The translations under genes were made by a program, and so were the position numbers. Shown here piece by piece: positions 21,966 through 39,097 of a stretch of 40,045 bases of DNA. Within the stretch, counting starts at the first letter, position 1. Each line of letters begins with the position of its first letter. Under the pieces are notes generated by a model. It was not told where the DNA came from. It was given only the letters and a program-made list of their open reading frames with translations, and made no database searches. Origin of the DNA: a virus; the IMG/VR virus record IMGVR_UViG_3300032288_004525, positions 1 through 40,045 of that record; one strand, written 5' to 3'.

Positions 21966-22847
21966 ATGGCTTTAGCAAACGTAAATATTACAGATACCTT
22001 TGATGTTTGGAGAACCCGAACAAATCAGATTATTGTAAGTCTTGAACAACAAGGTGGTTCTGCAAATGCTGTTATTGGTGCATTTGAAAAGGCTAACACG
22101 GCCAATTATTTCGCATATCTTGTAAATGCAAATACTGTTGCTGCATTTGACAAAGCTAATACGGGCGGTTCAATCAGCTATCTGGCCTACGATAAAGCAA
22201 ATGTGGCTAATCTTGTTGCGTATAGTGCTTTTGTCAAAGCAAACGCTGCAAATATATCAGCCGGTGCAGCTTTCGATAAGGCTAACGCAGCATATGGAGC
22301 TTTTGATCGTGCGGTTGAAGTCGGTGCAGCAGCAAACAGTTTTATGATATCTACAGTAGATGGTGCAAATACTATTGCTATCGCAGCATTCGAACAAGCC
22401 AATAGTGGCGGTGGTGGCGGTGGTGGCGGATCAAGCATAACCATATCAAACGATGTGACATCAAATGCAACAAGATATATTACATTTATCAGTGGCACTA
22501 CAGGATTGGCTACGGTAATACACACATCAAATACAGGATTGACATTCAATCCAAATACAGGAACTCTAAGCGCAACAATTTTCAACTCTTTATCAGATAT
22601 ATCACTAAAAGAAAATATTGCGAAAATTGACAATAGCTTAGATGTAATCGAACAACTGAATGGTGTGAAGTTCAATTGGAAAAAGAATGGTCTTGAAAGT
22701 TACGGTGTCATAGCACAAGATATTGAAAAAGTGATACCTCAACTTGTAAATGAGTTTGATGGTGTCAAAAATGTTAACTATGATGGTATCATCGCTTTTC
22801 TTATTGAAGCAATAAAAGAACTCAACAAAAAACTAGAGAATAGATAA
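21966..22847 (+). CDS. Tail fibre with C-terminal S74 self-cleaving chaperone domain
   Basis: A 293-residue protein. The N-terminus (MALANVNITDTFDVWRTRTN) is the kind seen in marine phage fibres. Residues ~30-150 hold AN-rich repeats (AFDKANTG, AYDKANVAN, AFVKANAAN). A Gly run then leads to a beta region. The C-terminal ~84 residues are an intramolecular chaperone of the peptidase S74/endosialidase type: SDISLKENI, then LNGVKFNWK, YGVIAQDIEKVIPQL and YDGIIAFLIEAIKELN. The S210/K215 spacing of five matches the catalytic dyad, so cleavage before S210 would release the chaperone after trimerisation. Confidence 0.88.
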   Translation: MALANVNITDTFDVWRTRTNQIIVSLEQQGGSANAVIGAFEKANTANYFAYLVNANTVAAFDKANTGGSISYLAYDKANVANLVAYSAFVKANAANISAGAAFDKANAAYGAFDRAVEVGAAANSFMISTVDGANTIAIAAFEQANSGGGGGGGGSSITISNDVTSNATRYITFISGTTGLATVIHTSNTGLTFNPNTGTLSATIFNSLSDISLKENIAKIDNSLDVIEQLNGVKFNWKKNGLESYGVIAQDIEKVIPQLVNEFDGVKNVNYDGIIAFLIEAIKELNKKLENR

Positions 22848-25112: not shown

Positions 25113-26122
25113 TGGCTAATACAGTAATCGCACTCAAGAAATCTAGTACACCCTCTGCAACACCGGCTAGCCTTGCTTACGGTGAGCTGGCTATCAACTA
25201 TGCTGATGGTAAGCTATTTTATAAAGCTGCGAACGGTAGTATTCTCGAAATTTCCGGTTCTGGTGGTGGAGGTGGTGGAGGTTCATCAAACAGTTTCAGC
25301 ACCATCAATGTAAACGGAACACTTGTTGTTTCTGATTCACCAACCAATATTCTAACACTCGTACCTAGTGGTGATATCACTCTTACGGGTGATGCTGTCA
25401 ATGATAAAATAACAATTGGTATGAGTTCTTCTACTAATGTTGTTCCTGCTTTTGATCAGGCTAACTCAGCACAGACAATTGCCATTGCAGCTTTCACAAC
25501 AGCAAACGCAGCAGTCAATGTTGCAACTTTAGATGGTGCCAACACTGCCGTAGGTGCAGGCGCAAATAACTACCTATTATCTGTTATTGCAGGTGCCAAC
25601 ACTACCGTTGGTGCTGGTGCGAATAGCTATTCTTTAGCTACCCTTGCAGGTGCCAACACTGCCGTAGGTGCAGGAGCGAATAGTTACCTCTTGTCCGTTA
25701 TTGCAGGTGCTAATACAGCCGTTGGTGCTGGTGCAAATGCTTATGCAACTGCTGTAGGAACTGAGGCCAATGTCATCGCGATTGCAGCATTTACAGCAGC
25801 CAACGCAGCCGGCGGAGCTGGTGTGGCAGCTGCATTCGACCAAGCTAATACAGCACAAACAATCGCCATTGCTGCTTTTACACAGGCTAATACTGGTGGT
25901 GGAGGTGGTAGTTCACTCAATACAGCAAATATTATAGTATTTTCAAACACAAGAATATCAACAAACGCAAATAGCGGTGCTGTTATAATTGCCGGTGGTC
26001 TGGGTGTAAGCGGTAACATATACACCGCAAATAGGATTGGTTATTCGAACACCACCAACGTGAGTGTTGTATATACATATTATAACACAATAACATCATC
26101 TTTGGATACGGTATTTGGATAA
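25112..26122 (+). CDS. Tail fibre protein with Mtd-type N-terminus and 19-residue tandem repeats
   Basis: A 336-residue protein. The N-terminus (MANTVIALKKSSTPSATPAS; LAYGELAINYADGKLFYK) is the same fibre-attachment type as in the 23427 gene. A Gly run and a beta region follow. Residues ~141-216 consist of four 19-residue repeats (AGANTAVGAGANSYLLSVI type), flanked by IAIAAFTTANA and AFDQANTAQTIAIAAF repeats. The C-terminal ~60 residues (AVIIAGGLGVSGNIYTANRI) resemble the module before fibre tips. The gene is joined to the following adhesin by TAATG, suggesting that they act together. Confidence 0.78.
   Translation: MANTVIALKKSSTPSATPASLAYGELAINYADGKLFYKAANGSILEISGSGGGGGGGSSNSFSTINVNGTLVVSDSPTNILTLVPSGDITLTGDAVNDKITIGMSSSTNVVPAFDQANSAQTIAIAAFTTANAAVNVATLDGANTAVGAGANNYLLSVIAGANTTVGAGANSYSLATLAGANTAVGAGANSYLLSVIAGANTAVGAGANAYATAVGTEANVIAIAAFTAANAAGGAGVAAAFDQANTAQTIAIAAFTQANTGGGGGSSLNTANIIVFSNTRISTNANSGAVIIAGGLGVSGNIYTANRIGYSNTTNVSVVYTYYNTITSSLDTVFG
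25532..25759 (+). repeat. Four tandem 57-bp repeats in fibre gene
   Basis: Units start at 25532, 25589, 25646 and 25703. Each encodes 19 residues of the GANTAVGAGAN type. Units 1 and 3, and units 2 and 4, are most alike in codon choice, which suggests duplication of a two-unit block. Confidence 0.8.
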
Positions 26123-29100
26123 TGGCGCAAGTTAATAGAACGCTCACATATCAAGGTGATATGCTCGTTCACGATACACATGATGATATCAGCATGGCTG
26201 ATGGTGCTTACAGTTGGCAGTTTGATGGTACTACTCAAGCCGTACATATCCCACATAATACTGTATTGAACTTTTCCAATGGTGATTGGACTATTGAATT
26301 TTGGATGTGCCCAGCAGCAACAGACGTTTTGTCAGGAACTGGTCGTGGAATATATTCCAAAAGAGCAACAAGCGCAATTTTCGCAAGCGTTGCTATTGAT
26401 TATAACGCTACAGTAAATACCATAAGAATAGCTGTTGCAAATGCTGCCGGTAGTGCATGGACAGTAAATACTACAATGACTCTAGATATTGGTGTTTGGC
26501 AACACATAGCATTTGTTCGCAATGGTGCTAACATATACGGATATAAGAATGGTGTTCGTTCCACACTAAGCACCGCAATGGCTTCAGCAGTAATTTTTGA
26601 TGATGGTGCTGCTGCCACTATAGGTCAAATTGCTGTTATTCCTATTTCTACCACTACGAGCTATGGTGCTGCTCGTTTCAAAGGTCTATTATCAAATCTT
26701 AGGGTTACGAAAGGTGTTGCGCTATACACAGCAACAACTATTCCTATACCAAAATCACCACTAGTCAATCAAGGTTCAGTAACAAGCTTATTGACTTGTC
26801 AATCAGCAACATTCAGAGATAACTCTTCATATGCACACATACTAACTGATGTCAACACACCGACAATATCATACAAAAATCCATTCACAACTGAAAAGAG
26901 TTTGAAGTTTGATGGCACTTCAGAATATATAACAACTCCTTCTAATGCGGTATTTGCATTTGGTACTGGCGCATTCACTGTTGAATTTTGGATTAAGTAC
27001 ACTGTACTACCAACAACTGGTAACGCAAGAATGGTTCCTCTTGATCACGCGGGTGTCTCTGGTGGTTTTGGAATGTTTTTATCATCTGGTGGTATAGATA
27101 TATACATTACTGCTGGTGCGGGCCTTGGAAATTTTCCATATACATGGTCTCTTGATACCTGGTATCATGTTGCTGTGGTAAGAAGCGGAACAACTTGTAC
27201 AGCATATGTCAATGGTATTGCGATTGGTACAAATACGGTTTCTACAAATTTCACTTCTCCAGGAACAGTGTTTATAGGTAGAAATGCGTTCAATGCGCTA
27301 CAATTTTTAGCTGGATATATGTCTAATTATCGTATCACAAAGGGTACTGCTGTTTATACAAGCAACTTTATACCACCTGAACCATTCACAGATTCTGACG
27401 CAAAAGGTGCATCGATACTTTTATTCACTTCTGGTGCTACACTCAGAGACCTTTCTTCAAATGGTTTAGCAATAACTGCTACTGGTGGTCCCACTGTTTC
27501 TTATGAAAACCCGTTTGATACGACATTGACGGATGAATCTTCTATACCTTTTGCAAACAGATTGACTAATAGTGTTTACTTCAGCTCATCAGCCAGTAGC
27601 TATTTGTCAGTCGGAACTCCAACAGCAATGACTGGTGTATTTACTATTGAGTACTGGTTGTATTTGCATAGTCTTACTGATGCTACTAACGGTCACGGAA
27701 TATTTTTCCAAGGTACAACAAGCTCGAACGCAAACCGAGTTCAAATGAGCGCTCTTCCATCACCAAACCGACTAGGTTTTTTCTGGGAAAATGCTTCAGC
27801 ATTAAATATGAATCTCCTTTCGTCAGCGGGATCGATAACAACGAAAACTTGGTTACATGTTGCAGTAGTTTCTAATGGATCAGGATCTACAGTGAAAGTA
27901 TATGTCAATGGCGTGGAGTCAGGTAGTACATCATATGTGAATGCCCCATCACCAGCAACAAATCTATATCTTGGTCTTCATCGATCTGGTGGTGTGTTGC
28001 GACAACAATTTGATGGGCAAATCTCAAATTTTAGATATACAAGAGCTGTTGTTTATTCAGGAAACTTTACACCACCAACAGCACCACTTCAGATAACACA
28101 ATCTGCTGGAACAAACATTGCTGCCATTACAGACAAAACATCTGTGCGTTTATTGACTTGTCAAAATTATGGAGAATTTGTTGATAATTCAATCTATGAA
28201 CAACCTATTTTAGCGTTTCCTACAACATTGACAACAACAATTAGAAACACACCAGTAACGTCAAAATTCAATCCTTTCAATTCAACGAATCAAACGTCTG
28301 CGTTGACTAACAACTATTATAGTGCATTCTTCAATGGCACATCACAGTTCTTAGCAACAAATGCTCCAGGATTTACATCATCAAATTTCACAATTGAATG
28401 TTGGTTTTATCTGACAAGTAATTTGACTTTCTTATCTCCAGATAATGCATATACTGCTACTATAGTAGGAAGTAACGTGAACACTGGCATGATTCTTTAT
28501 GTAGGTGCCCCAGCAGGAGCAGGTTCGACACCAACTGCTATAGTTTTGACTGGTCTAGGAGCAGGCCATACAGGGCCTGTAGCTTCTGTTACCGGTATGA
28601 CAATTCCAATCAAAACTTGGCATCATGTGGCTGTCAGCAGAAGTGGTTCAACCTTTGCTATGTGGTTCAATGGTGTCAAGCAAACATTTACAACCTTGAC
28701 GAATACAGGTAACGCATTTGCGGCTGGTACTCTAGCTATTGGATACAATGCAGAAAATGCAAGCTATCGCTACTGGTTCCCAGGATACATCTCCAACCTT
28801 AGAATCGTATTGGATAATCCCGTATATGATCCTACAGGTGGTGATATTACTGTTCCAACAGCACCACTCGTAGTTACCAATAGAACATATCTACTTGCAT
28901 GTCAATCATCATTGCATGTCGATAACACAACTACACCATTCACGATGACAGCAACTGGTGCTACAACAGACAAGTTCAATCCATTTAGAACACAATCTGA
29001 TTATTCTGTATCTCTCAATGGTAGTAGTCAGTACCTAACATTACCAATGTCAACGAATTTCGTTTTCAATGGCGACTTCACTATTGAAGCTTGGATAAAT

Positions 29101-31827
29101 CCTACAATTTTACCGGCATTAGGTGATCAATACTGGATCATTGGTAACTGGGCCCGTTCATTTTATTTGAATGTTGTGAATACATCAGGTGCAATTTATT
29201 TAGGTTTTGCTTTCAGTTCTGATGGTACATTAGGCACAGTTCAATCTGTAATTAAACCAGCAAATATTATAACTAACACATGGCAACATGTTGCTGCTGT
29301 TCGCGTTGGTACCACTGTCACATTATATCTTGACGGTGCATCTATTGGATTTGGAACCATATCAATTACCAATTTCAACTCAGGTACAATTGCTATCGGT
29401 CAAATCACTCCTGGTCCAGTGGCTGGTTACTATTTCCCAGGATATATTTCTAATCTTCGTGTTGTCAAAGGAACTGCTGTCTATACAGATAACTTCATAC
29501 CATCATCATCACCTTTGACTGCTATTGCAAACACATCATTGTTGACTTGTACTTCATCACAAATACGAGATTATTCTGGCAATAGTATTACCATAACAAA
29601 CAATGGTACTGCAACGGTTTCTTCTACAGTGTTTCCACCGTTTACGACTACATCGGCAACAAGTCAAGTAGAATTTCCTGCGTCTAAATTACTATCGACT
29701 GGTTCGTTGTTGACGAAAAGCTATCTAGACGATAGTTCAATATTCAATAGAACATATGCAACATATTTCAATGGTATCAATCAGTACCTAACTGGGCCAG
29801 CTAGTGTAGCATTTGCTTTTGTAAGTGGAGATTTTACTTTTGAATGTTGGATATGGACCGATCCATTCACTAATACAAATGGTCGGGCTATTTATAGTGC
29901 TAAACCAGATTTCAATTTTAGTTTAGATAATACAGGTAGAGCATCGTTCACAACATCGTCGCCCCCTGGTGGTTCTACTATAACTGGTACTACCAATGTT
30001 GCTACAAGTTCTTGGAATCATATAGCAGTTACTCGTCAAAATGGAACGATAAGACTATTCGTGAATGGTGTGTCAGACGCAACACCAATAATAGACTATG
30101 ATTTTGTTGGATCTAAAAGTCTGGGTGGTCGCATTGGTTTTGATATATATGGTGTAGTTGGTGGATTTGCTGGCGATACTCTTTGGAATGGATATATTTC
30201 AAATCTTCGTTTTATTAAAGGTACAGCACTATATACGACAACATTCACGCCGTCGCTTACACCACTAACTAATTACAATGAATTTATATATGAAACATCT
30301 TTATTAGCTTTTCAAGATAGTTCTGCAACTATAGATAACTCGTCATATGCACACGCTTTGACAGCAGTCAATGGACCACTAACGACAACGAATATTCCTA
30401 CACGATTCTATAGTGGATCGTTCAATGGAAGCAGCACATCTTTACAGGTAACCACAACAGCAGTTACGGGTGCATGGACTATTGAGTTTTGGGTTTATAA
30501 CGCCAGTTTTGGTGGAGCAGGCGGCAAAGGATATGTATTCAACGGCACTACAAGCTCAGATGCAGATAGAGTGCAGATAGGTGTTGATAGCACTGGGCAA
30601 TTTTATTACTATCACGAAAACTCATCATCAGGAACTTTTACTGTCAACTCTGGCGCAACACTACTATCTCTGAACAAATGGCATCACGTTGCTGTTGTTT
30701 CTGATGGAACTACTCTAACATTATTCATTGATGGTGTATCTGTTGGTTCAGGAACAATCGCAAACAGCCCTTCACCAGGCACCAACTTTTATATTGGATT
30801 CCTAAGAAATTCTGGAGCATTGCAATATCATCAGGGTTATATTTCAGATTTTAGATATGCAGGAGCATCGGTGTACACAGCAAGCTTCACGCCACCAACA
30901 CAAAAATTGACAGCGATTGGTGGTACATTTTTGCTTGCGCTACAAACCGCAAATGTTACTAAAGATAACTCTACCAATAATCTAACGATAACAAACAACG
31001 GTTCTGTCACAGCAGTAGCACCTATCTCATGGCCTACTGTGCAAAAGCAATATTCGACAGGTGTGATTGAGATTGTTGGTCATCTTGATGATTTCAATCC
31101 CGTTCAGAATGGTAATGTGAGTGCATATTTTATTGGTGATGGATATTATTTGAGTACACCTTCAAATGCATCTTTCAGTTTTGGCACTGATGATTTTACT
31201 CTTGAGGCTTGGGTATATCCTATTAACGGTGGACGAGCAGCAGATGCACTTAAATATGGAACTATAATATCTCAGTTTTTAGCCGGTAGCACTGGTGCCG
31301 GTTCAAATTCTTGGGGTCTAGGTATAGGTATGAATGGTGGAGTATTTTCTAGTGTAACATTTGAAGCCGATGGAGGATCTAGACTGGATATTACTGGTTT
31401 AACATTTGCTCTCAACACATGGCATCATCTTGCCGTTGTTCGTAGCAGTGGAACATTAACAGCTTATGTTAATGGTACATCGATAGGTAGTTCATCTTAT
31501 GCATCTTCTATAAACAATAATTCTTCTGGATCTGTTCAAATGGGAAGAAGTGCTTTTGCCGGTTCATATAGTAACTGGCTAAACGGATATCTATCAAATG
31601 TTCGTGTCACAAAAGGTGTCGCTGTTTATACTGGCAACTTCACAACACCAACATCACCGCTACAGATAACTCAATCTGCAAGTGCGAATATTGCAGCAAT
31701 TACTTCAACATCGTCTGTATCGTTGTTGACATGTCAAAACAGTGATCTTTCTGATATATCAACAAATCGGTTTTCAATATTCAACAATGGTGGTGTAACA
31801 TTCAACAATGAAATAATACCGTTCTAA
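26122..31827 (+). CDS. Giant multi-LamG adhesin (eight concanavalin A-like modules)
   Basis: A 1901-residue protein made of eight LamG/concanavalin A-like modules (LamG_3 type), starting near residues 30, 258, 483, 732, 960, 1212, 1430 and 1666. Each has an opening strand with an FDG/FNG-like motif, a FTIEFW-type strand, a WHHVAVVR-type strand, and ends with G-Y-I-S-N-L-R-x-x-K and a YTxxFxPPxxPL segment. Such domains bind carbohydrates, so it probably contributes to host recognition. The modules are divergent copies, which implies repeated internal duplication. The N-terminal ~25 residues are not LamG and may attach it to the preceding fibre. No transmembrane segment is seen. Confidence 0.85.
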   Translation: MAQVNRTLTYQGDMLVHDTHDDISMADGAYSWQFDGTTQAVHIPHNTVLNFSNGDWTIEFWMCPAATDVLSGTGRGIYSKRATSAIFASVAIDYNATVNTIRIAVANAAGSAWTVNTTMTLDIGVWQHIAFVRNGANIYGYKNGVRSTLSTAMASAVIFDDGAAATIGQIAVIPISTTTSYGAARFKGLLSNLRVTKGVALYTATTIPIPKSPLVNQGSVTSLLTCQSATFRDNSSYAHILTDVNTPTISYKNPFTTEKSLKFDGTSEYITTPSNAVFAFGTGAFTVEFWIKYTVLPTTGNARMVPLDHAGVSGGFGMFLSSGGIDIYITAGAGLGNFPYTWSLDTWYHVAVVRSGTTCTAYVNGIAIGTNTVSTNFTSPGTVFIGRNAFNALQFLAGYMSNYRITKGTAVYTSNFIPPEPFTDSDAKGASILLFTSGATLRDLSSNGLAITATGGPTVSYENPFDTTLTDESSIPFANRLTNSVYFSSSASSYLSVGTPTAMTGVFTIEYWLYLHSLTDATNGHGIFFQGTTSSNANRVQMSALPSPNRLGFFWENASALNMNLLSSAGSITTKTWLHVAVVSNGSGSTVKVYVNGVESGSTSYVNAPSPATNLYLGLHRSGGVLRQQFDGQISNFRYTRAVVYSGNFTPPTAPLQITQSAGTNIAAITDKTSVRLLTCQNYGEFVDNSIYEQPILAFPTTLTTTIRNTPVTSKFNPFNSTNQTSALTNNYYSAFFNGTSQFLATNAPGFTSSNFTIECWFYLTSNLTFLSPDNAYTATIVGSNVNTGMILYVGAPAGAGSTPTAIVLTGLGAGHTGPVASVTGMTIPIKTWHHVAVSRSGSTFAMWFNGVKQTFTTLTNTGNAFAAGTLAIGYNAENASYRYWFPGYISNLRIVLDNPVYDPTGGDITVPTAPLVVTNRTYLLACQSSLHVDNTTTPFTMTATGATTDKFNPFRTQSDYSVSLNGSSQYLTLPMSTNFVFNGDFTIEAWINPTILPALGDQYWIIGNWARSFYLNVVNTSGAIYLGFAFSSDGTLGTVQSVIKPANIITNTWQHVAAVRVGTTVTLYLDGASIGFGTISITNFNSGTIAIGQITPGPVAGYYFPGYISNLRVVKGTAVYTDNFIPSSSPLTAIANTSLLTCTSSQIRDYSGNSITITNNGTATVSSTVFPPFTTTSATSQVEFPASKLLSTGSLLTKSYLDDSSIFNRTYATYFNGINQYLTGPASVAFAFVSGDFTFECWIWTDPFTNTNGRAIYSAKPDFNFSLDNTGRASFTTSSPPGGSTITGTTNVATSSWNHIAVTRQNGTIRLFVNGVSDATPIIDYDFVGSKSLGGRIGFDIYGVVGGFAGDTLWNGYISNLRFIKGTALYTTTFTPSLTPLTNYNEFIYETSLLAFQDSSATIDNSSYAHALTAVNGPLTTTNIPTRFYSGSFNGSSTSLQVTTTAVTGAWTIEFWVYNASFGGAGGKGYVFNGTTSSDADRVQIGVDSTGQFYYYHENSSSGTFTVNSGATLLSLNKWHHVAVVSDGTTLTLFIDGVSVGSGTIANSPSPGTNFYIGFLRNSGALQYHQGYISDFRYAGASVYTASFTPPTQKLTAIGGTFLLALQTANVTKDNSTNNLTITNNGSVTAVAPISWPTVQKQYSTGVIEIVGHLDDFNPVQNGNVSAYFIGDGYYLSTPSNASFSFGTDDFTLEAWVYPINGGRAADALKYGTIISQFLAGSTGAGSNSWGLGIGMNGGVFSSVTFEADGGSRLDITGLTFALNTWHHLAVVRSSGTLTAYVNGTSIGSSSYASSINNNSSGSVQMGRSAFAGSYSNWLNGYLSNVRVTKGVAVYTGNFTTPTSPLQITQSASANIAAITSTSSVSLLTCQNSDLSDISTNRFSIFNNGGVTFNNEIIPF

Positions 31828-32959: not shown

Positions 32960-34198
32960 ATGGCAAATTTTATAACTTCGAGTGGTGAAGAATTAGCATC
33001 AACCTTTATGAATGATTCTTCACTAATTGATAGGTTTATTGGTAATCAGATATGGACTTGGGGAGATAACACCTACGGACAATTAGGTGATAATAGCAAA
33101 AGTTATGCCACGGCAAAATCTTCACCAGTACAAGTTAGTGGTAATCAAACAAATTGGATCAAATTACCTGATAGCATAAGCGCAAGTGCAACTCATATAG
33201 GTGCAATTAGATATGTTACTACAGGAAGTAATTTATGGTTGTGGGGTAATAACAATAGTAATCAAATAAACGTAACAGCCTATAGTGGCTTAACTTTATC
33301 TTATCCGTTACAAATTAAAGATATCGATACAGAAAACCCTCCAGATTTTTTATCTATAACTGATGTCTCACCATTTCAAACTACTGTACGCAGTAATACT
33401 GCATTTAGAACTTTTGCAAAAGGTTCAGGTGAATTTTTAGGAAATGGTTCTACAGCTGGTAGTAAAGCAAATAGCTTGCTACCTTTCTTTAATTCTGGAG
33501 GTGCTAATATATTGAAAGAGGTCTCTATTGGTCTCGATGGTGGTGTTGCTATACAAGCCAATACGGGAATTTTATTTTCAATAGGTTCAGCTAATATTGC
33601 TCCTAATGGTACTACAGGTTATTGGAGGCCAGCTCAACAGGTTGTTCCTACTGGTTATCCTTGGTCAACAGTATCTGCCGGAGATTATCATGTAGCTGGA
33701 ATTACTACAGATGGTAGATTATGGAGTTGGGGAAGAAATAATTATGGTCAGTTAGGTAATACAACAATTACAGTTGGAAGCACAGTAAATACATATACAC
33801 AATTACAAGGTTCTAGTAACAATTGGTCTAAGGTTTCTGCCGGTAGCGATCATACAGCAGCAATCAAAACCGATGGTTCTTTGTGGTTGTGGGGTAGAAA
33901 TGATTATGGACAGCTAGGTGATGGTACTGTAATACATAGGTCTTCTCCAGTGCAGATAATTGCAGGTGGTAAAAATTGGAAACAAGTATCTTCTGGTTAT
34001 AGACATACAGCAGCAATCAAAACCGATGGTTCTTTGTGGTGTTGGGGTAAAAATGATAGAGGTGAATTAGGTGATGGCACCATAATACATAGGTCTTCAC
34101 CTGTACAAACAGTTTTAGCTGGTAAAAATTGGAAACAAGTTGCTGCCGCCAAAGAATTTACTGCTGCAATAACCTACTACGAATCATTCTTAACATAA
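32960..34198 (+). CDS. RCC1-type seven-bladed propeller protein 1
   Basis: A 412-residue protein with seven RCC1-like repeats of the form LWxWGxNxxGQLGDGTxxHRSSPVQ. The clearest are the first (IWTWGDNTYGQLGD) and the last three (LWSWGRNNYGQLGN, LWLWGRNDYGQLGD, LWCWGKNDRGELGD); the middle ones are degenerate. The N-terminal ~30 residues (ANFITSSGEELASTF; SLIDRFI) form a short attachment-like segment shared in style with the other two RCC1 genes. RCC1 propellers are typical binding platforms and are uncommon in phages; here they fit a receptor-binding or virion decoration role. This copy is followed by a DUF4376-like assembly factor. Confidence 0.83.
   Translation: MANFITSSGEELASTFMNDSSLIDRFIGNQIWTWGDNTYGQLGDNSKSYATAKSSPVQVSGNQTNWIKLPDSISASATHIGAIRYVTTGSNLWLWGNNNSNQINVTAYSGLTLSYPLQIKDIDTENPPDFLSITDVSPFQTTVRSNTAFRTFAKGSGEFLGNGSTAGSKANSLLPFFNSGGANILKEVSIGLDGGVAIQANTGILFSIGSANIAPNGTTGYWRPAQQVVPTGYPWSTVSAGDYHVAGITTDGRLWSWGRNNYGQLGNTTITVGSTVNTYTQLQGSSNNWSKVSAGSDHTAAIKTDGSLWLWGRNDYGQLGDGTVIHRSSPVQIIAGGKNWKQVSSGYRHTAAIKTDGSLWCWGKNDRGELGDGTIIHRSSPVQTVLAGKNWKQVAAAKEFTAAITYYESFLT
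33851..34040 (+). repeat. Direct repeats in RCC1 gene 1
   Basis: Bases 33851-33887 and 34004-34040 carry the same 37-bp sequence encoding HTAAIKTDGSLW in the last two blades of propeller 1, about one blade apart. Closely similar stretches recur in propeller 2, so the DNA is suited to recombination between blades and genes. Confidence 0.75.
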
Positions 34199-34207
34199 GA
34201 GGAAAAA

Positions 34208-34843
34208 ATGTTTGTAATCATACAGAATAGCTCATTGATCTTTGGTCCAAAAAATTGGAGCAAATTGATTTTTGAAGAAATTATAAAAGAAGATTGCAAT
34301 CTAGAATGTAATATCAGTGTACAAAACGATGAGAATCTTCCAGTCGTTTTAGACAATGATGTAAAGATTCTTCCTGTCGTTTCGATAAATCAACCCTCAT
34401 ATAATTCGAAAATTGAAAGATTGGAGGGTCCTTATTGGAATTTCTATGAAGATAGAGCTGAAATGTATTATACTGTTGGTGATCTACCTATAGATGCTGT
34501 AAAAAACAGACTCAAGAATATCATATCTTCCAATAGATATGAGTATGAAAAGATAGGTTTTGATATGAAAATACAAAATGCTGATATCTATATCAATACT
34601 GGAAGAACTGAGAGGTCTGTCTTTTTACAGACACTATTTTACATGGAAGACAATGAAACCATAAACTGGAAATTTTCAGAAGGTTGGATGCAACTCACAA
34701 AACCAGATATGCAGCAGATTGTTTCTAAGATCAAAACACATGTTCAGTCATGTTTTATATGGGAACAAAACAAGATCGCTGAAGTTGATGCTGCAAATAC
34801 ACTTGAAGAACTTGATGCAATCAATACTGAGGTTGAGATATAA
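34208..34843 (+). CDS. DUF4376-like tail fibre assembly protein
   Basis: A 211-residue protein. The N-terminal half has a beta domain with a GPYWNFYEDRAEMYYTVG segment. The C-terminal ~110 residues match the DUF4376 pattern found in tail fibre assembly proteins and fibre ends: RYEYEKIGFDMKIQNADIY, then a Thr-rich turn, NWKFSEGWMQLTK, and a helix ending with the AANTLEELDAINTEVE repeat. Its place directly after the first RCC1 propeller and overlapping the second (TAATG) suggests it folds or attaches those adhesins. An AGAGGA ribosome site precedes the ATG. Confidence 0.7.
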   Translation: MFVIIQNSSLIFGPKNWSKLIFEEIIKEDCNLECNISVQNDENLPVVLDNDVKILPVVSINQPSYNSKIERLEGPYWNFYEDRAEMYYTVGDLPIDAVKNRLKNIISSNRYEYEKIGFDMKIQNADIYINTGRTERSVFLQTLFYMEDNETINWKFSEGWMQLTKPDMQQIVSKIKTHVQSCFIWEQNKIAEVDAANTLEELDAINTEVEI

Positions 34844-36066
34844 TGCCTTATACTGGTGCAAATAATAACTTCAGAATAAGAGGTTCCGACATAGGTGCGG
34901 GCCCTTATGGTTTAATACCACTAGAATTTTTCATAGACGCTTATCCTAATATTTTTCCAAACTTCAAAAAATCTAACTTATGGTTGATGGGTGATAATCA
35001 ATACGGTCAACTAGGTGATGGTACTGTAATACATAGATCATCACCAGTTCAATTATCAACAAGTGTAGCAAACAATTGGAATAAGATTAGTGCTGGAGAT
35101 AATTTTAATGTTTCTATAAATAGCAACACCGAGACAACACTATTCAATAGTCAAGGTTTTTCTTGGGGCAATAATAACTATGGTCAATTGGGTGACAATA
35201 CCATGGTCAATAAATCTTCTCCCGTTCTTTTTCAATCTTCTACTGATGTTTCTTGTGGATGGAATCACATATCTACTATTACAAACAATGGTGATTATCG
35301 TTATCTATGGACATGGGGAAGAAATGATTACGGACAACTAGGTGATGGTACCACAATACATAGATCATCACCAGTTCAAGTCGCAGGCAATTTTATTTGG
35401 TCCCAAGTATCTTGTCGCGCATGGAATACAGCAGCAACTAAAATAGACGGTACATTGTGGACATGGGGAAGAAATGATTACGGACAACTAGGTGATGGTA
35501 CCACAATACACAAGTCTTCACCCGTCCAAACAGTCGGTGCTGGTACTACATGGAAAATAGTTTCCTGTGGTGTAAATCATATGGCGGCAATCAAAACCGA
35601 TGGTACTCTTTGGAGTTGGGGTGTTAATGATCAAGGTCAATTAGGTGATGGTACAAGAATACATAGATCATCACCAGTTCAAGTAGGTGTTGACACTACA
35701 TGGAGAACTCTTTCTTGCGGTACTAATTATACAGCAGCAATCAAAACTGATGGTACATTATGGTCTTGGGGTTATAACGATTTAGGTCAATTAGGAGATG
35801 AAACTCAAACACACAGGTCTTCACCTGTTCAAACTATAGCAGCAGGTACAAAGTGGAAGTATGTGTCATGTAGCAATCATACAGCAGCAATCAAAACTGA
35901 TGGTACATTATGGTTGTGGGGTTATAATAATCTAGGTCAACTTGGTACGAATGATATCGAACATAGGTCTTCACCTGTTCAAACTGTATCACCAACTACA
36001 AATTGGATGAGAGTTGCTGCCGGTAATACACACACCATCATGATTCGTGAAAGTAATTTTTTCTAG
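34843..36066 (+). CDS. RCC1-type seven-bladed propeller protein 2
   Basis: A 407-residue protein with seven well-kept RCC1 repeats, the most regular of the three copies: LWLMGDNQYGQLGDG, FSWGNNNYGQLGDN, LWTWGRNDYGQLGDG twice, LWSWGVNDQGQLGDG, LWSWGYNDLGQLGDE and LWLWGYNNLGQLGTN, each followed by HRSSPVQ or close to it and by a TAAIKTDG strand. The N-terminal ~40 residues (NNNFRIRGSDIGAG) are a different attachment-like segment. Two blades share a 53-nt identical stretch, pointing to recent duplication or gene conversion. It would form a closed seven-bladed propeller. Confidence 0.87.
   Translation: MPYTGANNNFRIRGSDIGAGPYGLIPLEFFIDAYPNIFPNFKKSNLWLMGDNQYGQLGDGTVIHRSSPVQLSTSVANNWNKISAGDNFNVSINSNTETTLFNSQGFSWGNNNYGQLGDNTMVNKSSPVLFQSSTDVSCGWNHISTITNNGDYRYLWTWGRNDYGQLGDGTTIHRSSPVQVAGNFIWSQVSCRAWNTAATKIDGTLWTWGRNDYGQLGDGTTIHKSSPVQTVGAGTTWKIVSCGVNHMAAIKTDGTLWSWGVNDQGQLGDGTRIHRSSPVQVGVDTTWRTLSCGTNYTAAIKTDGTLWSWGYNDLGQLGDETQTHRSSPVQTIAAGTKWKYVSCSNHTAAIKTDGTLWLWGYNNLGQLGTNDIEHRSSPVQTVSPTTNWMRVAAGNTHTIMIRESNFF
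35308..35510 (+). repeat. Pair of 53-bp identical direct repeats in RCC1 gene 2
   Basis: Bases 35308-35360 and 35458-35510 are identical and 150 bp apart, one blade unit. They encode the WTWGRNDYGQLGDGTTIH part of adjacent blades. Such identity in an otherwise diverging repeat family indicates recent duplication or conversion. Confidence 0.85.
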
Positions 36067-36103
36067 AAAGATTTTTGAGTTGATTAATCATTTAGTTAAA
36101 ATC

Positions 36104-36577
36104 ATGGCAATTGATGGGTTTTTTACTACAAAAGATGCACATAATACATGTTCTATTGTTATGGATCTTTCTTATGAAAAAACAACATTCGGTGAGAAAA
36201 TATCAAATTTCAATATGATACCGGAGAATGCTAATGAAATGTTTTCTAACATACTAAATACAAAGATTGAGGTTGATGAGCCGAGTTCTGGTGTATTTTT
36301 CAAACCAGTCTCTTGGATTCACTTTGAAAATTTCGAAAGTAGTAATGAATGGTTGTTTTTTTGTGCGTTGTCCGAAACAACACTGAATATCTTTGAGCAT
36401 CAATCCGGCGCTACGACTGCGTTAGACGGTTACGAGTTCAATTATAGAAATTTATTTGAATGGGATTTACAACTCAATTTTATGTTGAAACCGGGTCAAG
36501 GTGTACTTTTTAGACCATGGTTATTTCATAGTTTCAATGGAGGCCTAATTCAAATGTTTAAACTGAGAGAAGTATAA
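36104..36577 (+). CDS. Putative double-stranded beta-helix (2OG-oxygenase-like) protein
   Basis: A 157-residue protein from ATG at 36104; a GTG at 36047 would add 19 residues and overlap the RCC1 stop. No clear ribosome site exists for either. The C-terminal half looks like a jelly-roll: a WIHFENF strand, WLFFCALSETTLNIFEHQSG, and the closing LKPGQGVLFRPWLFHSF, which resembles the distal His region of small 2OG-Fe(II) oxygenases or cupins. A full metal triad (HxD...H) is not evident, so enzyme function is only possible. It ends with TAATG at the third RCC1 gene, and may modify or attach propellers. Confidence 0.6.
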   Translation: MAIDGFFTTKDAHNTCSIVMDLSYEKTTFGEKISNFNMIPENANEMFSNILNTKIEVDEPSSGVFFKPVSWIHFENFESSNEWLFFCALSETTLNIFEHQSGATTALDGYEFNYRNLFEWDLQLNFMLKPGQGVLFRPWLFHSFNGGLIQMFKLREV

Positions 36578-37764
36578 TGGCAGCAACAAACTTTCAAGTT
36601 AATGGTATTGATTTTGATGATGCCTACGTCAGAAAAGATGTTTTTACTAATATGAGTTCGCTATGGACTTGGGGAAATGGTGCTTCGGGACAATTGGCCA
36701 ATGGTGGTTCTGGTACTGGTAATCATAGGTCTTTACCAGGTCAGATAACGGCAGATGCTAATACTTGGAAAAAATGTTTTAGTTTAGCAAGTGGATCGAG
36801 ATTTGCTATAGCAAATAATGGCACATTATGGTGTTGGGGTTATAATGCTAATTATGTTTTGGGTAATGGTACCAATACAAATGTATTAACTCCAATAAAA
36901 CTAAATGCCGGAAACAATTGGATGCAGGTTACATCAATAGGTGGTTTAACTGCTGCACTGAAGAATGACGGAACTGCATGGTGGTGGGGTAATTATGCCA
37001 ATAGATCAACACCCTCTCAATACGGTGTTGATACAGATTGGATTCATATTGATGGAGGTTATGCACTTAAGTCTAATGGTTCATTATATGAAATGAGATT
37101 GAATGTCGTTAACATTTTAAATGTAACCGCTAATACGTTACCCTTAAATTTTGGAACCAATAACAAATATATCAGCGGCACCATTAACTATGGTGGCGCG
37201 ATCATCAAAACTGATGGTACACTATGGACTTTTGGAAACAACAACTACGGTGAATTAGGAGATAATACTTTTGGTCTACATAGATCATCACCAGTTCAAG
37301 TATATGGTGGTGGTACATGGAAAGATGTATCTTATCGTAGAATCGGAACTTCTGGTGCAGTAGTCGGAGCAATCACAGCTAACGGTATGTTACATATGTG
37401 GGGCCATAATACAAATGGTAATTTAGGAATTGGATCAAATTCTCATAGATCAATACCGACAGTATTATATGTAACAACTTCTAATCCTAATAGCTGGATG
37501 AAAGTTAGTGCACCTAATTCAGCTCAAACTATAGCAGCATATCCTATTGGTAATAGAGAAGTTTTAGAACCTACGGTCGCCCTTTCTTCTGATGGTACCG
37601 CTTGGTCTTGGGGTATGGGTACATCCGGTCAATTAGGTGATAATAATACTGCGCAGCCCGGTACTACACATAGATCATTTCCTGGACAAATACGCACTGG
37701 TCAAGTATGGATAGATATATCAAGTTGTATGGGAATAACTAAATTTGATTTCGAATCTACATAA
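36577..37764 (+). CDS. RCC1-type seven-bladed propeller protein 3
   Basis: A 395-residue protein with seven RCC1-like repeats, more diverged than in copy 2: LWTWGNGASGQLANG, LWCWGYNANYVLGNG, AWWWGNYANRS, a degenerate LYEMRLN repeat, LWTFGNNNYGELGDN, LHMWGHNTNGNLG and AWSWGMGTSGQLGDN, with HRSSPVQ or related ends. The N-terminal ~25 residues (NFQVNGIDFDDAYVRKDV) again differ from the other two, fitting the idea of different attachment tags on a shared propeller. It starts by TAATG overlap with the preceding gene. Confidence 0.83.
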   Translation: MAATNFQVNGIDFDDAYVRKDVFTNMSSLWTWGNGASGQLANGGSGTGNHRSLPGQITADANTWKKCFSLASGSRFAIANNGTLWCWGYNANYVLGNGTNTNVLTPIKLNAGNNWMQVTSIGGLTAALKNDGTAWWWGNYANRSTPSQYGVDTDWIHIDGGYALKSNGSLYEMRLNVVNILNVTANTLPLNFGTNNKYISGTINYGGAIIKTDGTLWTFGNNNYGELGDNTFGLHRSSPVQVYGGGTWKDVSYRRIGTSGAVVGAITANGMLHMWGHNTNGNLGIGSNSHRSIPTVLYVTTSNPNSWMKVSAPNSAQTIAAYPIGNREVLEPTVALSSDGTAWSWGMGTSGQLGDNNTAQPGTTHRSFPGQIRTGQVWIDISSCMGITKFDFEST

Positions 37765-37792: not shown

Positions 37793-39097
37793 ATGAATGG
37801 TGATCCTTTAACAACTGTAAAATTTCTCATGTCTATACATCAGAACGATGATGCTAAAATTGTTCTAGATGTGATGAAGAAATATTGTATAAGTCTACAG
37901 CAAATAGATGCTGTTGGTGAACTATATTCGAAGATGAGAGAGTTCAGTGGCTGTTATGAAATGTGTCAAAAAGCTTTGACCTTGATCAAAACAGATGAAG
38001 AGTTGATATCAGTCAAATCAAACATGATAAGGGCGCTGATATCACTCAATAAACCTATAGAGGCATTAGATTGCCTTGATTTTCTAGAAGACAAACTTCC
38101 AAACAATCAAAGTAATCGTATGGATAGAGCTATGTGCCTCTTTCTTTTAAACAAGAAAGATGATGCAGAATCTATATTGAGAGAGATATTGGAAGAGCCA
38201 CATTCAACCGAATTAGATAAAAAAATAAGATTCAATCTTGGTACTTATAATCTAAGAAAAGGATTATTCAAAGAAGGTCTTAGAGGTTTTCTGGTTGATG
38301 GGCGGAAAGTGGATATTTGGAGAAAGTATGATCTTCCTATATCAAATATTTGGACGGGAGGTCCAAAACCAGACAAAACTATAATGGTTTGCACTGAGGG
38401 AGGTTTAGGAGATGAGTTTATATCTATCAGGTTTATGAAGCATCTGAAAGATATAGGTATGAATCCTATATGGTATACTGATAGAGAAGACCTTGCCAAA
38501 ATATTCGAAAGAAATGGATATCAAGTTGTCACATCCCTCAATGATTATAAGAAAGAATGGTTATGGTGTTATGGTATGGCAACACCTTGTTATCTAGACT
38601 TAGAAGAAGATGATCTTTGGTATGGGCCATATCTGCAACCTATTCGCCGAAAAAAAATATTACCTGGAAAATTGAAGATAGGTCTCAAGTGTTCGGGTAA
38701 TGCAAAGTATGATCAAGACTTGCACAGGACAATACCTTTCAAAGAAGTGATTGATTGCCTACCAAAAGATGCGACAATCTATTCATTTCATGTAGACGAA
38801 GATATCGATGATCCTCGTGTTGTATCTCTAAGAGATAATATAAAATCTTGGGAAGATACTTTAGATTACCTAGATCAGATGGATGTGGTTGTTTCTAGCT
38901 GTACCTCATTACCGCATGCCTCTGGTGCGCTAGGTAAGAAAACGATAGTTATGGTACCTATCTTGACATATTATACATGGACATATCCTACAAAACATAC
39001 AAAATGGTATTCAGAAAATACAACTGTATTGAGGCAAGTAGAGTATGATAATTGGAATGCACCTCTCAGTGAATTGAAAGAACTTTTTGATGTATAG
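37793..39097 (+). CDS. TPR plus glycosyltransferase family 9-like protein
   Basis: A 434-residue protein. The N-terminal ~180 residues are helical TPR-type repeats (AKIVLDVMKKYCISLQQIDA; PIEALDCLDFLEDKLPNNQS; KDDAESILREILEEP). From ~195 a GT-B fold begins with the GGLGDEFISIRFMKHL motif, the donor-side loop of heptosyltransferase-like (GT9) enzymes. Further on are LKIGLKCSGN and VVSSCTSLPHASGALGKKTIV, which resembles the HLAAALG nucleotide-sugar binding motif. It may transfer a sugar to lipopolysaccharide or to virion proteins; the substrate cannot be told. It is followed by two further glycosyltransferase-like genes. Confidence 0.8.
   Translation: MNGDPLTTVKFLMSIHQNDDAKIVLDVMKKYCISLQQIDAVGELYSKMREFSGCYEMCQKALTLIKTDEELISVKSNMIRALISLNKPIEALDCLDFLEDKLPNNQSNRMDRAMCLFLLNKKDDAESILREILEEPHSTELDKKIRFNLGTYNLRKGLFKEGLRGFLVDGRKVDIWRKYDLPISNIWTGGPKPDKTIMVCTEGGLGDEFISIRFMKHLKDIGMNPIWYTDREDLAKIFERNGYQVVTSLNDYKKEWLWCYGMATPCYLDLEEDDLWYGPYLQPIRRKKILPGKLKIGLKCSGNAKYDQDLHRTIPFKEVIDCLPKDATIYSFHVDEDIDDPRVVSLRDNIKSWEDTLDYLDQMDVVVSSCTSLPHASGALGKKTIVMVPILTYYTWTYPTKHTKWYSENTTVLRQVEYDNWNAPLSELKELFDV

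Follow-up and report, generated by a model that had tools for sequence, protein, structure and literature searches.

Three paralogous RCC1 genes lie in a row in a T4-like phage, each with its own N-terminal segment. The window, 40,045 bases long, is one complete linear record of IMG/VR. Based on family searches, its genes include baseplate wedge, hub, tail tube, and tail-fibre families, and the nearest matches to gp6 are in Pelagibacter phage HTVC008M, Synechococcus phage BUCT-ZZ01, and Methylophilales phages. Near the right end, the order is a LamG protein, a glycine-rich protein, a DUF7936 protein, RCC1-A, s1, RCC1-B, s2, RCC1-C, and a TPR protein, all on the + strand and almost abutting or overlapping (Table 1). 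The original prediction of three RCC1 paralogues in a row with small partner genes between them is borne out in coordinates, frames, and order, and its phage adhesin cluster agrees with the gene families, which place the trio in a T4-like adhesin and tail region. Upstream of the trio, the LamG protein (26122-31827; 1901 aa, with eight LamG, concanavalin A-like, stretches) is a probable large adhesin, and an S74-like protein is also present (21966-22847).

Table 1. Positions in the window of the three RCC1 genes, their parts, and the genes between and directly after them.
Feature	Position	Strand	Evidence or remark
RCC1-A, whole gene	32960-34198	+	RCC1 propeller
Slot-A N-terminal tag, 30 aa, MANFITSSGEELASTFMNDSSLIDRFIGNQ	32960..33049	+	Eight best tag matches elsewhere all slot-A
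RCC1 propeller A, middle blades degenerate	33050..34171	+	PF00415 E 1.8e-50
s1, 211 aa, DUF4376 C-terminal domain	34208..34843	+	PF14301 E 4.1e-10
RCC1-B, whole gene	34843-36066	+	RCC1 propeller
Slot-B N-terminal tag, 45 aa	34843..34977	+	Eight best tag matches elsewhere all slot-B
RCC1 propeller B, seven clear blades	34978..36051	+	PF00415 E 1e-77, seven stretches
s2, about 165 aa, start uncertain (GTG 36047 or ATG 36104)	36047..36577	+	Family in 10 trio loci
RCC1-C, whole gene	36577-37764	+	RCC1 propeller
Slot-C N-terminal tag, 28 aa	36577..36660	+	Eight best tag matches elsewhere all slot-C
RCC1 propeller C, some blades degenerate	36661..37725	+	PF00415 E 5.2e-29; AlphaFold2 model
TPR-containing protein directly downstream of slot C	37793..39097	+	Weak TPR matches, E 5.8e-4

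All three proteins contain an RCC1-like domain, with repeats of about 50 residues over the curated PF00415 cut-off. There are 16 such matches in the window (A has 4 stretches, B has 7, and C has 5), and none in 14 control genomes in the same Pfam search. Seven blades had been predicted for each protein. This is correct for B, which has seven HMM blades over threshold and for which the closest solved structures are UVR8, HERC, and RCC1; A and C have five each, with further degenerate blades between them that were counted by eye, the middle blades of A by eye only. Strong evidence that seven is the closed unit comes from the relatives, in which the blade number is quantised, being a multiple of seven in 143 out of 153 complete distinct ORFs (128 with 7 blades, 11 with 14, 2 with 21, one with 28, and one with 42). 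For C, an AlphaFold2 model of moderate confidence (mean pLDDT 69, pTM 0.73) was aligned by Foldseek over 384 columns to complete seven-bladed propellers, for example UVR8 and RCC1 (E 7e-20, TM about 0.67-0.71). Alignment rows for the AlphaFold2 modelling came only from the window and the fetched related loci, with one relative left out. Exceptions to the multiple of seven include three proteins of slot A, for which six HMM blades were counted (L012 14303-15337, L057 8283-9281, and L084 109-1137). There are also very large RCC1 ORFs, with 28 blades in L031 (656-7993, together with collagen and Peptidase_S74 parts) and 42 in L082 (2956-9381).

The premise of the original prediction that RCC1 propellers are mostly eukaryotic or bacterial surface proteins is not supported, because they are common in phages; a scan of IMG/VR found at least 599 RCC1 stretches in viral contigs. 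The eukaryotic RCC1, UVR8, and HERC proteins share the fold and the repeat with the window proteins, but are only 17-22 % identical to them in structure alignments, and differ from the phage family in that the loop columns are unconserved within the latter. Among the matches listed, 25 related loci have the A-s1-B layout, most of them also with C, and in 22 of 23 trio loci the s1 proteins are homologous. With s1 as the query of a second scan, 24 distinct relatives were identified, of which 22 have RCC1 genes on both sides; the remaining two have RCC1 on one flank, with no qualifying gene within the search range on the other. Large records that were sampled (105-260 kb) mostly have about 19-21 RCC1 repeats, equivalent to one trio, and two have 42-47. 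The trio is a widespread conserved cassette, present in many metagenomic phages and also in Synechococcus phage S-SRM01. A second IMG/VR record (L009, IMGVR_UViG_3300033571_016090) has a slot C that is 100 % identical to that of the window and the same gene order.

As originally noted, the short N-terminal segments of A, B, and C differ. Comparisons between genomes show that these tags and the propeller bodies have different histories. Of 67 tags, 65 have their closest counterpart from other genomes in the same slot; shuffling the slot labels inside each genome gives 23.5 +/- 5.4 (p 0.0002). For bodies, the number is 21 of 67, with 22.6 in the same null. A slightly different score gives 64 for tags and 22 for bodies. 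Body pairs from the same slot and from different slots are just 0.2 points apart in mean identity (nominal p 0.049). The tags are therefore slot-specific and conserved, and the bodies carry essentially no slot signal. In a likelihood tree, in which many deep branches are weak and the A and C of the window are very long branches, the bodies are often grouped by genome, and the slot labels are over-dispersed (38 changes versus 31.5 when shuffled). The longest exact DNA match between bodies has a median of 36 nt within a genome (maximum 179) versus 18 nt between genomes. The window's own three copies are older, with longest exact matches of 16-26 nt.

Because there is essentially no slot signal and the bodies tend to group by genome, they look homogenised between the slots of one genome, with the tags staying put. 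Instead of three heads that evolved separately, they thus resemble copies of a single scaffold with differences at the loop positions. Recombination between slots is the presumed cause, although duplications that repeatedly replaced the bodies and left the tags in place would be expected to give an identical pattern. Conserved slot-specific tags on unconserved bodies fit the part of the original prediction that proposed a distinct attachment tag for each copy of a similar, exchangeable body. Exchange with other folds was not seen, as the tags are found only on RCC1 bodies in the loci examined; among all fetched loci, no match to the tags on a non-RCC1 protein was below E 0.05, and a general attachment tag is therefore not claimed. 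In six of the loci (L099, L100, L105, L110, L120, and L123), slots A and B have longer, unrelated-looking N-terminal tags, with s1 and the propellers unchanged.

Most of the variation in the bodies is held by six columns per blade (6, 8, 9, 19, 40, and 41). Identity in these loop columns is 13.0 % between genomes, where 13.3 % is expected by chance, and 18.9 % between slots of one genome; for the other columns it is 65.5 % and 75.3 %, respectively. Shifting the blade register changes these identities little, therefore the blades look mutually replaceable. Loop differences comprise 211 synonymous and 3148 nonsynonymous changes, about as for unrelated codons. Positive selection at the loop columns was rejected as a claim, since the synonymous share is that of saturated codons; loop variability may be due to lost constraint rather than selection, the counts fitting both. 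It is possible, and tentatively proposed, that a common scaffold is continually copied between three slots with fixed, position-specific docking tags and diversified only at the six loop positions of each blade, providing three changeable binding surfaces per virion.

The locus is probably a three-slot tail-surface cassette, in which the tags most likely dock and the propellers would bind a host surface feature. Each protein would consist of a short slot-specific N-terminal tag and a seven-bladed RCC1 propeller, with each tag most likely serving to dock the protein at a separate tail or baseplate site. The propeller would face outward and present its hypervariable loops for binding. Fusions in relatives point to such a location. 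In Pseudomonas phage PollyC, RCC1 is joined to a region matching phrog_33642, tail fiber assembly (residues 1-334, E 1.7e-66), the Pfam match to Phage_T7_tail being only E 6.7e-5 and below the curated cut-off. In Ppr_SeaP2, the propeller is fused behind a tail-fibre N-terminus. Directly before slot A, L046:4769-8122 combines collagen, a seven-blade RCC1 propeller, and Peptidase_S74, and the L031 fibre directly upstream of slot A has RCC1 within collagen and Peptidase_S74 parts. In A, B, and C, Pfam finds no tail-fibre attachment domain besides RCC1, and the single PHROGs tail match is marginal (phrog_13857 to the A body, E 5.4e-5); in the loci examined, their tags form a separate family. Mass spectrometry has found three tandem RCC1 proteins in virions of Escherichia coli phage W70 (PMC11370258) and gp1 in those of GAP32 (PMC5259590), for which the authors favour DNA packing or assign no role. 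These precedents are distant relatives with a different gene order, 121Q having a different tag type as well. Together, the tail-fibre fusions and the virion data from distant relatives favour tail-surface heads over condensation of DNA.

A role in condensing DNA inside the capsid is implied by the labels RCC1 and 'DNA condensation protein'. PHROGs, GenBank, and papers assign the RCC1 proteins of phages to DNA condensation or nucleotide metabolism, and authors have suggested condensation for distant relatives (PMC7247149; PMC11370258). Many members of the cassette are basic (median pI 8.8), but A, B, and C have a charge close to neutral (+0.3 to +2.1), therefore charge is a weak test. This role is highly improbable given that the genes sit among tail-fibre genes, that the propeller is fused to tail-fibre parts in relatives, and that there are three distinct conserved tags and loop columns without residue-level conservation.

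The same fusions and virion data argue against intracellular host-takeover proteins, which would bind a host protein in the manner of BLIP-II or Kti13 and be in the late region by chance. RCC1 propellers are general protein-binding scaffolds, and there are non-structural neighbours, for example glycosyltransferase- and sulfotransferase-like genes, which would suit such a role; however, a fixed host target would require conservation, and the loop residues are unconserved. Host takeover is thus considered improbable.

In a role as virion decoration, the propellers would coat the tail or head surface and aid stability or weak non-specific adhesion rather than bind a receptor. The homogenised bodies fit a purely decorative role too, given a scaffold common to all three slots and loop residues near chance between genomes, and the main receptor binding could fall to the large upstream fibres, the LamG and S74-like proteins. 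However, in the fusions the propeller is next to the N-terminal part of a tail fibre or to collagen and S74 parts, and loop residues are strongly different between slots within one genome. Decoration alone is therefore regarded as rather unlikely.

The s1 protein belongs to DUF4376 (PF14301, 40.5 bits versus a cut-off of 25), and matches phrog_10508, tail fiber protein, in PHROGs (E 2.9e-13). Located between A and B, it most likely acts as their chaperone, of the tail-fibre-assembly type, or as their partner. There was no Pfam or NCBIfam match for s2, searches of PDB sequences with s1 and s2 gave nothing significant, and NCBIfam was uninformative on the trio as well as on the partner and neighbouring genes. 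An HFE (HxE) motif and a distal H are invariant in 10 s2 sequences. In Foldseek, the AlphaFold2 model of s2 (pLDDT 85) best matches 2OG-Fe(II) oxygenases (ALKBH6, E 4.8e-5), and also cupins, with modest TM of about 0.4-0.6. On the basis of the model, s2 is a putative double-stranded-beta-helix, 2OG-Fe(II) oxygenase-like protein, and between B and C it may modify the propeller heads.

Phage RCC1 proteins, their tandem copies, and their presence in virions are already known; in the open-access literature, to which the search was confined, no description of a slot-specific tag cassette was found. The most similar known locus is gp335-gp344 of S-SRM01 (NC_070963, Kyanoviridae), which has RCC1-A, a DUF4376-type protein, RCC1-B, and later RCC1-C, with tags that match those of the window slot by slot. 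It differs in having several genes (TPR, 2OG, and others) between B and C; identity among its own three bodies is 70-73 %, and its slot A has six HMM blades. A TPR protein of a length comparable to that in the window is annotated after RCC1 in S-SRM01, and genes that are N-terminally similar to the window TPR protein were found downstream in several trio loci. Escherichia phages W70, 121Q, and phAPEC6 (phrog_4219) also have tandem paralogous RCC1 genes of similar length, but these are distant in sequence, no DUF4376 companion is annotated, and a role in DNA packing has been suggested by the authors. In 121Q (L146 8323-21256), eight translated RCC1 proteins share one nearly identical N-terminus (about MLPFARMVKYGNIAP) and have divergent bodies; one tag with many heads is the reverse of the three tags on one scaffold type in the window. 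The tail fibres of Pseudomonas phages PollyC, Ppr_SeaP2, and Littlefix likewise have an RCC1 propeller, there on the C-terminal side of a tail protein, but as one fused protein and not as a tagged trio.

The combination of tag and propeller, the slot specificity of the tags, and the fusions to tail-fibre parts argue for heads on the tail surface, and the role of phage RCC1 proteins is made directly testable in the cultured phage S-SRM01. The opposite evolution of tags and bodies would be an unusual natural case in which the docking part is fixed and the display scaffold is homogenised and re-diversified.

A candidate ORF at L018:4500-8120 was dropped because it is in the wrong frame. In L012, L014, L017, and L018, sulfotransferase-, glycosyltransferase-, methyltransferase-, and 2OG oxygenase-like genes are present downstream of C or between B and C.
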